A program made the translations under genes and the position numbers. From the IMG/VR virus record IMGVR_UViG_3300010885_038891, positions 1 to 40,110 of that record: DNA of 40,110 nucleotides; one strand, written 5' to 3'. Shown here piece by piece: positions 19,638 through 39,793 of the stretch. The notes under the pieces were generated by a model. It had not been told where the DNA came from. It did not search any database and saw only the letters and a program-made list of their open reading frames with translations. Each line of letters opens with the position of its first letter. Position 1 is the stretch's first letter. Origin of the DNA: a virus.

Positions 19638-19918
19638 TTACGAATCGCTTTACCAGGTTTAGAGGATTCTTTCATGAAACTGGGAACTTCAGGTTCTTCA
19701 CCTAAATTACCAGGTTTAGAGGATTCTTTCATGAAACTGGGAACTTCAGGTTCTTCACCTAGATCTTCAGTTTTTTCAAGAACAGATGTTTCCACTTTTG
19801 AAGCTTCTCTTTCACATGGGCGATATTCTTCCCACCCATTAGCTTTATCATGAGATACTTCTTTAGAAGATACCGCCACTTTTGCTCCATAGATCGCATG
19901 TCGAAGATATACATTCAT
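19634..19918 (-). CDS. Small protein with duplicated PSFMKESSKPG motif
   Basis: A 94-residue protein of unknown function. The N-terminal 35 residues (VYLRHAIYGAKVAVS) may be a small folded region; the rest is charged and probably disordered. It contains two copies of a 19-residue unit with core EVPSFMKESSKPG, made by a 57-bp tandem duplication. The same PSFMKE motif appears in the coiled-coil protein of the replication operon, with different codons. It overlaps genes on both sides (ATGA upstream, GTGA downstream). It could be a linker or docking protein in the virion or a regulator; I cannot decide. Confidence 0.65.
   Translation of the reverse strand: MNVYLRHAIYGAKVAVSSKEVSHDKANGWEEYRPCEREASKVETSVLEKTEDLGEEPEVPSFMKESSKPGNLGEEPEVPSFMKESSKPGKAIRK
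19651..19764 (-). repeat. 57-bp tandem duplication
   Basis: Two adjacent 57-base units (19651-19707 and 19708-19764) differ at one position near their ends (AAAT versus AGAT). They lie in frame in the small protein with PSFM motifs, adding 19 residues. The near identity implies a recent duplication, and copy number may vary between isolates. Confidence 0.9.
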
Positions 19919-32736: not shown

Positions 32737-32933
32737 AAAAGGAAGTAGAGGAAAAACTTAGGCTATTACAACTTTTCGAAAATTCGATATTCAAGGGATT
32801 GGCTACACCTATGAATGAGTCGCTCATACTCTTTTATTTGCTTACCTACCACACCAAATGTTGTGCGTGTATATGTAAAACCTTGGGTATACCATTTACG
32901 TATCATCTTAATAGTGAGGACAATGAACAATGA
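32718..32933 (+). CDS. Small early protein, unknown
   Basis: A 71-residue protein with an N-terminal charged helix (SEQLKKEVEEKLRLLQLFEN) and a cysteine cluster (HTKCCACICKTLG) that could bind a metal. GGAGG lies 7 bases before the ATG. It overlaps the glycosyltransferase gene at ATGA, which suggests co-translation. Confidence 0.62.
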   Translation: MDSEQLKKEVEEKLRLLQLFENSIFKGLATPMNESLILFYLLTYHTKCCACICKTLGIPFTYHLNSEDNEQ

Positions 32934-34186
32934 AGAAACTATATTTATTTCCCGGATGCTCACCTTACATAGGTGGAGCGGAAACTTTGTTTCATTCTAT
33001 CGCTGAACGACTAAAACACGAATTCGATATTCACGTGCTGCTTCAACCTGGAGCGTGTGAAAACCTATTCGAATTACAACCGGTTACAGGTGTAACACTG
33101 CACAACTTATCAACTGAATATCGTTTCAAATGTTACGATAACGGGGTTCTACTATGTGGTGGCGCATCAATTGGGCAAATCCCTAACCTAATTTACCCCT
33201 CTCAAACTAAATTAGTCGTATGGCCGCTTCATACACTTGAATTGTTTATGTCATTTACCCCATTCGTGCATTACATTTCCACACGATTCGGGTATACGTT
33301 TTTACGAAAATACGTGAATTGGATGGCTGAGGGTTCCACGATAAAAAGTATCCTCAATAATCTGAATGAAAAAAATGGTCTGATCTTCATGGACTATAAT
33401 ACTCTCGCGTGTTCTGAGTACGTTTTGGGGATATCCGGTAAAGTGGTGCCTTTGATGGTTGACTTTAAAGATCAAATTCGCGAGAAAAAAACTAATGAGG
33501 TACCTAGAATCGCGTGGGTGGGTCGTCTAGACTCGTTTAAAATTCACATTTTAGAATATATCATCCGCGACATGTCTAAAAGAAAAAACACGAGTTTTCA
33601 CATAATCGGTAGTGGTAAAGCTGAAAAAAGAATCCGTGCTTTAGCCAACCGGTTGAACTTCAATATCACATTTCACGGATTCGTAGAACCAAGTAAACTA
33701 CCCGACCTTATACAAACAATGGATGTCGTCTTTGCAATGGGAACGAGTGCACTCCAAGCCGGCCATCTAGGCGTAGCCACGGTACTGGTCGACTATTCAG
33801 AAAAGAGGATAAAAGAAGACAGTTATCAGTTTTCATGGTTATGCGATCAAGTGGTTATCGGAGTTGGTCAAGATATTAATATGCCGTATTTTAGAAGATC
33901 TACCTCTTTGAGGGGAAGTGATGATTTTAAAACAATCGGGAGTCAATGTCATGATTATGTGGAGAAATATCATGGGGAATCAGCTAATAAGAAGTTGATT
34001 GAGGCACTTCATACTAGCACGGCTCCTTTATCCCTAGTTCATGAGATTAAGTTTATTAAACCAATTCAGAAAACGTTGTATATAAGACTATCCAAGATTA
34101 GGGATAAGATCCTTAAAATGCGTAGTCAATATTCATACTCGTTTTTTGAAAAAGTAATTGACTATTTTTATCCAGTGGTGATATAG
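32930..34186 (+). CDS. GT-B glycosyltransferase, GT4-like
   Basis: A 418-residue cytoplasmic sugar transferase. The N-lobe begins KKLYLFPGCSPYIGGAETLF, with the glycine loop of GT4 enzymes at 14-18. The C-lobe has PRIAWVGRLDSFK, FHIIGSGKAEKRIRAL and NITFHGFVEPSKLPDLI. The nucleotide-sugar site reads AMGTSALQAGHLGVATVLVD, with Gln where an acid of the EX7E pair is usual, so activity or donor may differ. A basic C-terminal helix (YIRLSKIRDKILKMRSQYS) could bind membrane. In an early operon it could modify host O-antigen to exclude other phages, or modified phage DNA bases; no base-modification gene was seen, so the first is favoured. Confidence 0.8.
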   Translation: MKKLYLFPGCSPYIGGAETLFHSIAERLKHEFDIHVLLQPGACENLFELQPVTGVTLHNLSTEYRFKCYDNGVLLCGGASIGQIPNLIYPSQTKLVVWPLHTLELFMSFTPFVHYISTRFGYTFLRKYVNWMAEGSTIKSILNNLNEKNGLIFMDYNTLACSEYVLGISGKVVPLMVDFKDQIREKKTNEVPRIAWVGRLDSFKIHILEYIIRDMSKRKNTSFHIIGSGKAEKRIRALANRLNFNITFHGFVEPSKLPDLIQTMDVVFAMGTSALQAGHLGVATVLVDYSEKRIKEDSYQFSWLCDQVVIGVGQDINMPYFRRSTSLRGSDDFKTIGSQCHDYVEKYHGESANKKLIEALHTSTAPLSLVHEIKFIKPIQKTLYIRLSKIRDKILKMRSQYSYSFFEKVIDYFYPVVI

Positions 34187-34611: not shown

Positions 34612-35355
34612 ATGAAAACTGTTATTTTTAAAAATTATGAAGAATTTTTAAACCGGAAGGAAAGAGAGGTCAACGGGGTTAGCCCTGAATTCGCACAACA
34701 ATTTCCAGAATTTGAAAAAAATAATGATACAAATAAGGCATGCTGGAATTGCCGTGGTTGCCGTGGTTGCCGTGGTTGCCGTGGTTGCCGTGATTGCTGG
34801 GATTGCTGGGATTTCTGGGATTGCCGTGGTTGCCGTGGTTGCCGTGATTGTAGTGATTGTAGTGATTGTAGTGATTGCAGTGATTGCTGGAATTGCCGTG
34901 GTTGCAGTGGTTGCAGTGATTGCAGTGATTGTAGTGATTGCAGTGATTGCTGGAATTGTAGTGATTGTAGTGATTGTAGTGATTGCCGTGGTTGCTGTGG
35001 TTGCTGGAATTGCCGTGGTATTGACAAAGAGCGATTATATATACCAAAAATAGAAAATATTCATCAAAAAGTGTATGAATCGGCCTCTAAGCCTGGGTCG
35101 CTTAATATGAGCAAGTGGCATACCTGCGATACAACACATTGTCGAGCAGGTTGGGTGACTACCATTGCAGGAGATCAAGGAAAAAAATTAGAGGATTATT
35201 ATGGTCCCATATTGGCGGCGGTAAAAATATATAAAGTCAGCTCATCAATTGAAGTTAAATGGGCGTTGCGTTTTTTCGAAAGCAACAAAACTGCCATGGC
35301 TGATATGAAAAGATGCGCTGAATTAGAAAGGAAACAAAATGAAATCCAAAATTAG
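34612..35355 (+). CDS. Cysteine tripeptide-repeat protein with conserved C-terminal domain
   Basis: A 247-residue protein in three parts. Residues 1-43 are a short N-domain. Residues 44-136 are 31 tandem tripeptides of the form C-[R/S/W/C]-[G/D/N], carrying 31 cysteines with one C replaced by F. The C-terminal 100 residues form a separate domain (IENIHQKVYESASKPGSLNM; SKWHTCDTTHCRAGW; FFESNKTAMADMKRCAEL). I recall similar Cys-rich arrays joined to a WHTCDTTHCRAGW domain in other phages, without known function. The array could be a solenoid, a metal or redox-active scaffold, or a display rod. No signal peptide, so it acts in the cytoplasm. Confidence 0.8.
   Translation: MKTVIFKNYEEFLNRKEREVNGVSPEFAQQFPEFEKNNDTNKACWNCRGCRGCRGCRGCRDCWDCWDFWDCRGCRGCRDCSDCSDCSDCSDCWNCRGCSGCSDCSDCSDCSDCWNCSDCSDCSDCRGCCGCWNCRGIDKERLYIPKIENIHQKVYESASKPGSLNMSKWHTCDTTHCRAGWVTTIAGDQGKKLEDYYGPILAAVKIYKVSSSIEVKWALRFFESNKTAMADMKRCAELERKQNEIQN
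34741..35019 (+). repeat. 9-bp tandem repeat array, 31 units
   Basis: Thirty-one 9-base units of the form TG(C/T)-(CGT/AGT/TGG/TGT)-(GGT/GAT/AAT), one with TTC as first codon. Runs of identical units (four TGCCGTGGT; four CSD units twice) suggest growth by slippage or unequal crossover. The array also leaves other frames open, producing spurious ORFs on both strands. Confidence 0.95.
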
Positions 35356-36407: not shown

Positions 36408-36631
36408 AAATATTTGATCCCAAAATTACGCCTGGGCCGTGGAAAATACAAGATTATATTGCGGCAATATCCGCCATCCCCGCAATGACGCAAGTCATAA
36501 AAGTAGCTAGAAAAGTAGATTGGTTTGTTCAACCAGAAAAGGGAGACATTAAAAGTATAGAAGTTCTTAATGAATTAGGTAATGCTTTGTACGAACTAGA
36601 CCAACTACATGGAAAGGAAGTAGATAAATGA
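36404..36631 (+). CDS. Small early protein with TPGPWK motif
   Basis: A 75-residue protein beginning KIFDPKITPGPWKIQDYIAA. The ITPGPW block is a common opening of small phage accessory proteins of unknown function (ead/Ea22-like). The C-terminus is a charged helix (IEVLNELGNALYELDQLHG). It overlaps neighbours at ATGA on both sides and directly precedes the hexapeptide-array gene. Confidence 0.65.
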   Translation: MKIFDPKITPGPWKIQDYIAAISAIPAMTQVIKVARKVDWFVQPEKGDIKSIEVLNELGNALYELDQLHGKEVDK

Positions 36632-37275
36632 AAGAGAAAATAATCAATGAATCTATTATCGAAGGCGATTTAATTTTTGATGGTAAGTTAATTTTTAAAT
36701 GCGATTGTGAAATTATCGGTAATTTAAAATGTGATGAAATATATTCAGAATATTCATTGAAAGTTATTCTTAACCAGGACGTTCGCGGGTACCAGTACGT
36801 TGGCGGGAACCAGGACGTTGGCGGGAACCAGGACGTTCGCGGGAACCAGGACGTTGGCGGGAACCAGGACGTTCGCGGGAACCAGGACGTTCGCGGGTAC
36901 CAGTACGTTGGCGGGCTCCAGTACGTTGGCGGGAGCCAGTACGTTGGCGGGAACCAGGACGTTGGCGGGAACCAGGACGTTCGCGGGAGCCAGGACGTTT
37001 GCGGGAGCCAGGACGTTCGCGGGAGCCAGGACGTTCGCGGGTACCGTTATTTTTCATTTGGTTCCAAATATAAATTTGGTGTTCTTGGAGATGTAGTAAA
37101 AATAGGATGTAAAGAAAAAACTGTTTCTGAATGGGAAGAATTTTTTACTACTAAACAGAAAATAGAATTAGAACCTGATTCACCCGCCTATAGGCGACTT
37201 CATATGGGATTTAATGCCTGTAAGGCTTTGATGGGATGGCATGATGTTTATAGGAAACCGGAGGTTAAACAATGA
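36628..37275 (+). CDS. Hexapeptide-array (left-handed beta-helix-like) protein
   Basis: A 215-residue protein. Residues 1-48 look like beta-solenoid strands (IIEGDLIFDGKLIFKCDCEI). Residues 49-138 are fifteen hexads, [N/Y/S/L]-Q-[D/Y]-V-[G/R/C]-G. Read as V-[G/R/C]-G-x-Q-x, they fit the hexapeptide rule of left-handed parallel beta-helices, about five turns. The C-terminal 77 residues (FGVLGDVVKIGCKEKTVSEW; FFTTKQKIELEPDSPAYRRL) form a distinct domain that I recall from other phage proteins of unknown function. The acyltransferase active-site histidine of LpxA-type proteins is absent, so this is not an acyltransferase. GGAAG lies 9 bases before the ATG. Confidence 0.75.
   Translation: MKEKIINESIIEGDLIFDGKLIFKCDCEIIGNLKCDEIYSEYSLKVILNQDVRGYQYVGGNQDVGGNQDVRGNQDVGGNQDVRGNQDVRGYQYVGGLQYVGGSQYVGGNQDVGGNQDVRGSQDVCGSQDVRGSQDVRGYRYFSFGSKYKFGVLGDVVKIGCKEKTVSEWEEFFTTKQKIELEPDSPAYRRLHMGFNACKALMGWHDVYRKPEVKQ
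36772..37041 (+). repeat. 18-bp tandem repeat array, 15 units
   Basis: Fifteen units of consensus NNC-CAG-KAC-GTT-NGC-GGG. Codon 1 is AAC, TAC, AGC or CTC; codon 3 GAC or TAC; codon 5 GGC, CGC or TGC. Codons 2, 4 and 6 and every third position are invariant in all units. The array is far more GC-rich than its flanks. Confidence 0.97.
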
Positions 37276-38928: not shown

Positions 38929-39164
38929 AGCGAATTAAACTAAAATTCATGGTAGACCCTGAATGGCTGAAAGAGCATACCTATATTGAAGATCCCGTTA
39001 GGGTTAAAATAGTTGACCCTGAGGCTATATTTTTAACCGGTATACTAGGTGAGTCCGGTCGTGAAATGTGCCTGGCGGGATTCCCCTTTATATTTGAAAG
39101 GAAATTAGCCGAAAATTTAATAAATAAGTGGATAGCTGAAAAGATAGAGGAGGAACCCACATGA
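38925..39164 (+). CDS. Small early protein, unknown
   Basis: A 79-residue protein (KFMVDPEWLKEHTYIEDPVR; ISLTGILGE-like; ERKLAENLINKWIAEKIEEE) with alternating strands and a charged C-terminal helix. GTG start overlapping the upstream stop, with GGAGG 8 bases before. It overlaps the J-domain gene at ATGA. Confidence 0.65.
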   Translation: MKRIKLKFMVDPEWLKEHTYIEDPVRVKIVDPEAIFLTGILGESGREMCLAGFPFIFERKLAENLINKWIAEKIEEEPT

Positions 39165-39793
39165 ACCCATATAAGATATTAGGCGTATCCAGAGAAACAT
39201 GCACCGACGAAGAAGTGAAAAAGGCATACAGGAATAAAGCTAAGCTTCTCCATCCTGACCAAGGAGGAGACCCTCAGGAGTTTCAAGAGTTGAAAGCTGC
39301 ATATGAGCTTATTAAATCTAAGACAAAACGGGATTCTTTTGAGTCAGGTGAAACAGATACTATTCGAGTTGAAGCCCTTAATCTCATTGGTGCATTATTC
39401 AACGAACTGCTTTACAAGTCGTTTGACAGATATATGAAAACATCTTTTCTCGTAGAAATCGAACTTAGACTTAAAGAAGGACTTGATCAGATAAGTAAAG
39501 AACTACAGGAAATTCGCACAAAATCTAGAAGTTTAAATGACAGATTGGGTGTTGTTTTCTTGAAACCTGGTAAACAAGAGCGGGCTTTATTTGATGAGGT
39601 CATTGAACATAATTTGAAGCAACTCGGATATGAGAAAAAGAAACTAAAATCTGTGAAAAAGGTTCATATCACCGCACTTCGAATATTGCGAAATTTCGAG
39701 GAAAGTTCCGATTGGGATGATGTAGAACCTCAGGCTCTCTTGATGGCCCGTGACTCCAGTGATTTTAGGAAAATCTTATATAGTATTGATTGA
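39161..39793 (+). CDS. J-domain (DnaJ-like) protein
   Basis: A 210-residue protein with an N-terminal J-domain (about 1-55): NPYKILGVSRETCTDEEVKK, AYRNKAKLLHPDQGG with the essential HPD at 31-33, and FQELKAAYELI. J-domains activate host DnaK. There is no G/F region or zinc domain, so it is not a general DnaJ; the C-terminal 150 residues are a charged helical domain of unknown role. It may steer host DnaK to a phage target such as replication complexes or capsid assembly. GGAGG lies 7 bases before the ATG. Confidence 0.85.
   Translation: MNPYKILGVSRETCTDEEVKKAYRNKAKLLHPDQGGDPQEFQELKAAYELIKSKTKRDSFESGETDTIRVEALNLIGALFNELLYKSFDRYMKTSFLVEIELRLKEGLDQISKELQEIRTKSRSLNDRLGVVFLKPGKQERALFDEVIEHNLKQLGYEKKKLKSVKKVHITALRILRNFEESSDWDDVEPQALLMARDSSDFRKILYSID

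Follow-up and report, generated by a model that had tools for sequence, protein, structure and literature searches.

A hexapeptide-repeat array in a tailed-phage protein suggests a virus that keeps reshuffling a binding surface in the manner of PRDM9

The window, by which we mean the whole 40,110-nt stretch of DNA analyzed here (IMGVR_UViG_3300010885_038891, positions 1 to 40,110), is the record of a tailed phage, with recognizable genes for a primase/helicase, an exonuclease, a gp2.5-like annealing protein, a polymerase, a portal, a terminase and a major head protein. The structural genes that could be recognized occupy the - strand between 14 and 30 kb. Apart from them, in a block of small ORFs on the + strand between 30 and 40 kb, lies a gene whose central part is an array of short tandem repeats. 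This gene and a second repeat-bearing gene close to it have the following features.

34612-35355, + strand: neighboring ORF P0002, with about 31 C-x-x units of 9 bp at 34741-35019 and a conserved C-terminal domain; present also in the related contig L008.
36628-37275, + strand: ORF of the array protein P0001, 215 amino acids, with flanks conserved in frame in L008 and other relatives.
36628-36771, + strand: N-terminal part (residues 1-48), modeled as beta-helix coils capping the array and leading into it; conserved with L008.
36772-37041, + strand: array of fifteen 18-bp units encoding [N/Y/S/L]-Q-[D/Y]-V-[R/G/C]-G, each modeled as a single Q-x-V strand with an x-G-x turn.
37042-37275, + strand: C-terminal part, with short beta strands and two helices predicted by AlphaFold2, shared with relatives.

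The C-terminal part matched no Pfam family; its motif I/V-K-I-G-C-x-E-K-[TS]-x3-W-x2-FF is common to the window protein and to the proteins of contigs L008, L002, L004 and L027. The same block of small genes also contains a glycosyltransferase group 1 ORF (32930-34186) and a DnaJ-domain ORF (39161-39793). Elsewhere, a 57-bp tandem repeat in two exact copies (19650-19761) lies inside a predicted - strand ORF. PADLOC returned no match.

All fifteen units of the array are free of indels and remain in the + frame of the ORF. Codons 2, 4 and 6 are CAG, GTT and GGG in every unit, and no third base varies. Codon 1 is AAC in eight units, AGC in four, TAC in two and CTC in one; codon 3 is GAC in eleven and TAC in four; and codon 5 is CGC in seven, GGC in seven and TGC in one. 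These make up seven unit types related by seven substitution steps, 7 of them non-silent and 0 silent. An earlier sequence-only reading had described the array in these terms, with all differences amino-acid changing, and the description proved exact on recount. It had also argued that ordinary divergence should leave silent changes. We too counted none, but the argument is statistically weaker than it appears: about 23% of random changes in the window unit are expected to be silent, and 0 of 7 therefore gives P of about 0.17. The lack of silent changes in the window array alone is thus not significant, and the case for selection rests on the comparison with relatives described below.

A 16-base core taken from the unit has 15 copies in the window, compared to 0.07 expected from shuffles, and every copy is within the array. 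GC content is 67% in the array, as compared to 39% in the window as a whole and 30% in those parts of the array gene that lie on either side of it, and the array includes codons that are rare in this genome (GGC makes up 9% of the Gly codons, CGC 7% of those for Arg and AGC 6% of those for Ser). These two observations rule out phage codon bias as the source of the uniform third bases, which are a product of common descent or homogenization. No inverted repeats were found flanking the array. In most relatives, as in the window, the GC content of the array is higher than that of its locus.

AlphaFold2, supplied with an alignment of ten sequences, predicted an ordered solenoid of period 6 for the window protein (mean pLDDT 81), in which each hexad forms one Q-x-V strand and turns of three residues connect the strands. 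The pLDDT was 94-97 in the N-terminal part and dropped along the array to about 57-60 in the last units. A second model, of a family of paralogues from contig L030, had a pLDDT of 91 and a pTM of 0.83, with array blocks mostly at 93-98 and the same register. In the modeled register every other residue is Q, V or G, with the variable residues in between, and we infer from this that the variable residues point outward in the predicted solenoid.

As the sequence-only reading had proposed, the array was therefore predicted to be ordered and not disordered. That reading had suggested a left-handed beta-helix displaying chosen residues; the ordered beta-solenoid and the outward variable residues are supported by both models, but left-handedness is not established. 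Foldseek against the PDB gave no significant match for either the window or the L030 model, and the weak best matches were mixed beta-helices, with better superpositions to other beta-helices than to those of the LpxA type. Like LpxA-type left-handed beta-helices, the array has a six-residue period, an aliphatic residue in each turn and, as predicted, short parallel strands. However, the LpxA-type hexapeptide pattern is [LIV]-[GAED]-X2-[STAV]-X or [LIV]-G-X4 (PMC12081914), while the phage hexad, V-[RGC]-G-[NYSL]-Q-[DY], has Gln at the [STAV] place and often Arg at i+1. The Pfam hexapeptide family gave no match for the array. Pentapeptide-repeat proteins (PF00805) are also beta-solenoids of short repeats, but their repeat length and core differ and PF00805 had no match in the window.

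Pattern and alignment searches of viral contigs identified xQxVxG arrays in L002, L003/L011, L004, L005/L006, L008, L019, L021, L022, L025, L027, L029, L030 and L033, and the same hexad is present in at least ten related virus contigs. The closest relative of the window protein is that of L008, with 60% identity. In L006 the array gene is followed immediately downstream by an ORF (379-1362) that looks like RecT, as judged by eye. All of these relatives are metagenome contigs, and in them, as in the window array, short-read assembly may collapse or reorder 18-bp repeats.

Searches by tblastn with the window, L004 and L002 proteins gave no match in cultured phages at the limits used, in part because the low-complexity filter masks the array. 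A DNA pattern of paired units did not occur in the viral contigs because the third bases are not the same from one array to the next. The GTDB genomes, screened by DNA pattern and by alignment, yielded no confirmed relative, nothing was matched in a PDB sequence search, and we found no description of the motif or of such phage arrays in the literature. The array did match profiles of PHROG families 5070, 7964 and 31248 (E = 4e-9 to 2e-6 for the window and 3e-29 for L003); these matches indicate repeat similarity and not a functional assignment, since they mainly cover the repeats and phrog_5070 is also matched in 6 of 14 control genomes.

The nearer arrays each have their own uniform third bases: the unit is AAC CAG GAC GTT CGC GGG in the window, AAC CAG GAT GTG CGT GGC in L008 and AAT CAG GAT GTC CGA GGC in L002. 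In all of them the variation falls at codons 1, 3 and 5, and the sets of residues overlap. Differences within an array are almost all amino-acid changing whereas differences between arrays are almost all silent. To express this contrast we used a McDonald-Kreitman-like table of non-silent to silent counts, comparing sites variable within arrays with sites fixed between arrays. The ratios were 7:0 within and 0:4 fixed for the window and L008 (P=0.003), 7:0 and 0:5 for the window and L002 (P=0.0013), and 24:2 and 0:5 for three disjoint array pairs summed (P=1.2e-4), all of these being approximate values from small samples in which the array pairs share ancestry and palettes and so are not fully independent. 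Tree-based tests do not apply to such recombining arrays (PMC3890296).

Across the family, pN at codons 1, 3 and 5 exceeded pS in 17 of 19 arrays (sign test, P=0.0007), while pN at codons 2, 4 and 6 was 0-0.12. Silent differences as frequent as amino-acid-changing ones were therefore not the situation in most arrays, although they were seen in some distant members: L022 and L033 carry silent changes freely and L021 is near parity. Given these exceptions, the lack of silent change marks recently homogenized arrays and is no rule for the whole family.

Near-identical relatives show that the arrays turn over. The contigs L003 and L011, from different samples, have flanks that are 99.4-99.5% identical, with 2 silent changes as the only differences in the flanks of the array gene, yet they carry 22 and 11 full units respectively, in different order. 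L005 and L006 are opposite ends of a single contig, and NQDVGG is present two or three times in the array where they overlap, a difference that may be due to assembly. A second case is provided by the sister contigs L025 and L030, and the virus of L003/L011 has in addition an array of another kind.

L030 8405-11032 and L025 3100-4787: tandem hexad-array gene families of five and three paralogues, respectively, with blocks shuffled between paralogues.
L015 ~770-1046 and L016 ~842-1118: pentapeptide array of 18 units A-[NYD]-L-[SR]-[GS] in the L003/L011 virus.

Among the L025/L030 paralogues, blocks such as TQRVSG-DQRVIG-YQHVEW-NQFVIR recur in new contexts. Co-linear 21-unit arrays of the two contigs differ by 5 amino-acid-changing codons and 1 silent codon, and several of these swaps are multi-base (for example AAG to TAT and TAC to CGC). 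Swaps of two or three bases point to conversion from another unit and not to point mutation. Variation in the pentapeptide array is almost all at first bases and residue-changing; three codons distinguish its two versions, all of them changing the amino acid and none silent, again by conversion-like swaps. When L025/L030 and the pentapeptide array are combined, the ratio of non-silent to silent differences is 8:1 in the arrays as compared to 4:8 in the flanks (P=0.024). Turnover was observed in L003/L011 and in L025/L030; no near relative of the window virus itself was found.

Recent amplification or conversion together with selection for side-chain variety, as first proposed from the window alone, is borne out by the inverted ratios, by the excess of pN in 17 of 19 arrays and by the rearranged arrays. 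We therefore infer that the array is probably a coding minisatellite encoding an early-region beta-solenoid of the phage, homogenized by recombination while selection keeps its surface varied. Each 18-bp unit would add one short strand with Gln inward, a variable residue outward and Val inward, followed by a Gly turn flanked by two further variable residues. In-register recombination between units, whether by unequal crossing-over, slippage or conversion, would alter their number and order and would also even out silent and core positions among the units of any one array. Phage annealing recombinases probably help in this, and the gp2.5-like annealing protein together with the exonuclease is a plausible motor. 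Selection would keep the three outward positions varied within a small polar and aromatic palette (N/Y, D/Y and R/G, plus S, H, W, K and I), and the protein would so present a changeable mosaic surface.

Another way to obtain this pattern is through structural tolerance: codons 2, 4 and 6 would be under purifying selection, positions 1, 3 and 5 would be free to vary, and silent changes would be homogenized away. The core positions are indeed strongly conserved, and outward positions of solenoids are commonly permissive. However, homogenization should erase variation at free sites too, yet this variation is at intermediate frequency in almost every array. It is also confined to a palette that is mostly reached by transversions (N/Y, D/Y, R/G), and the codon swaps in close relatives are mainly amino-acid changing. 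We consider structural tolerance unlikely on these grounds.

It could also be speculated that a few cassettes were recently and neutrally amplified, that silent changes are too young to have appeared and that the seven amino-acid changes arose by chance. The window taken alone would allow this, as 7 non-silent and 0 silent changes have a P of only about 0.17 and its genome-foreign codons (67% vs 39% GC) are as in a recently acquired block. It is distinctly improbable in view of the relatives, since the same three positions vary among near-same residues in many arrays whose silent sites were fixed separately. Under neutrality, cassettes would not be expected to retain these three polymorphisms as all other positions become fixed, and neutrality does not fit with pN exceeding pS in 17 of 19 arrays.

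Targeted mutagenesis, for example by a diversity-generating retroelement, would change few codon positions, and NAY codons do vary without making stops. Nevertheless it is very improbable here: C/G and G/T pairs, which lack A, are among the variable bases, so that the changes are not adenine-specific, no template copy of the unit was found elsewhere in the window, a scan of 22 ORFs gave no match to a reverse transcriptase, and the differences between relatives resemble whole-codon swaps between units. A gene on the opposite strand, in whose codon-aligned frame first-base changes (and so nearly all within-array differences) would be silent and PANVLV repeats conserved, is hardly credible, as stops in the flanks break that frame in every relative checked, the antisense peptide varies (PANVLV, ASDILI, AAHVLV) while the sense hexad is constant, and it is the sense frame that is conserved in the N- and C-terminal flanks.

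As for what the surface of the favored recombining solenoid might do, the charges at its variable positions are mixed (D 11 and R 7 in the window, D 9 and R 8 in L008, D 9 and R 12 in L003). The DNA-mimic surface offered in the sequence-only reading is for this reason not supported, and a mimic of the Qnr/MfpA type is disfavored by the mixed D/R charges and the absence of a PF00805 match in the window. Ice binding is not supported as there is no Thr-lined face. A tail fiber, spike or other virion protein is likewise not supported, the array gene being apart from the structural genes; its only similarity to a tail protein was a weak match to a collagen-like tail (E = 0.087). A possible role, which we put forward tentatively, is the binding of a variable host or competitor target. 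Such binding would take place in the cytoplasm, early in infection, with a host or rival-phage molecule as the target.

The pattern of the hexad arrays may be general across the other solenoid arrays in these phages, the pentapeptide and C-x-x arrays. In the C-x-x units of P0002, C is followed by R/S/W and then by G/D/N, and silent TGC/TGT variation is present. P0002 matches the profiles phrog_31265 and phrog_15341, both of unknown function. Its C-terminal domain is common to L008 and Flavobacterium phage FL-1, which has a C-[SF]-[DRGYN] array, and toward its N-terminus it matches a gene from a Vibrio phage that bears the annotation "insect antifreeze protein". A broader proposal, somewhat doubtful at present, is a general phage class of self-shuffling solenoid binders: unrelated solenoid repeats (hexad Q-x-V, pentapeptide A-x-L-x-x and C-x-x) would each be coding minisatellites in which outward residues alone escape homogenization, giving diversification free of reverse transcriptase against host-defense or competitor targets.

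The hexad array can be compared to two known systems. The zinc-finger array of PRDM9 is a coding minisatellite whose units are homogenized except at contact positions (PMC3890296), and the phage array resembles it in having near-identical tandem units, three mostly non-synonymous variable positions and turnover of number and order by recombination. In contrast to the eukaryotic, DNA-binding zinc fingers with their 28-codon units, the phage unit is an 18-bp hexapeptide of a predicted beta-solenoid, a candidate binder. WD40 repeats of the fungal HNWD NLRs het-d/het-e undergo concerted evolution and have hypervariable recognition-surface sites under diversifying selection (PMC12222747). High internal conservation, hypervariable sites and length polymorphism are shared with the phage array, while the HNWD sensor is a fungal beta-propeller that differs in fold, organism and unit size.

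These data suggest that a virus keeps reshuffling a binding surface much as PRDM9 does. The evolutionary signature of recognition surfaces in PRDM9 and the fungal NLRs is seen here in a family of small phage proteins to which no function has been assigned, and it suggests a route of phage diversification that needs homologous recombination only. If selection favors variety among the outward residues, the proteins of this family probably recognize something fast-changing. The phage arrays are compact and easily expressed, and their natural variants are a ready set for finding the target.
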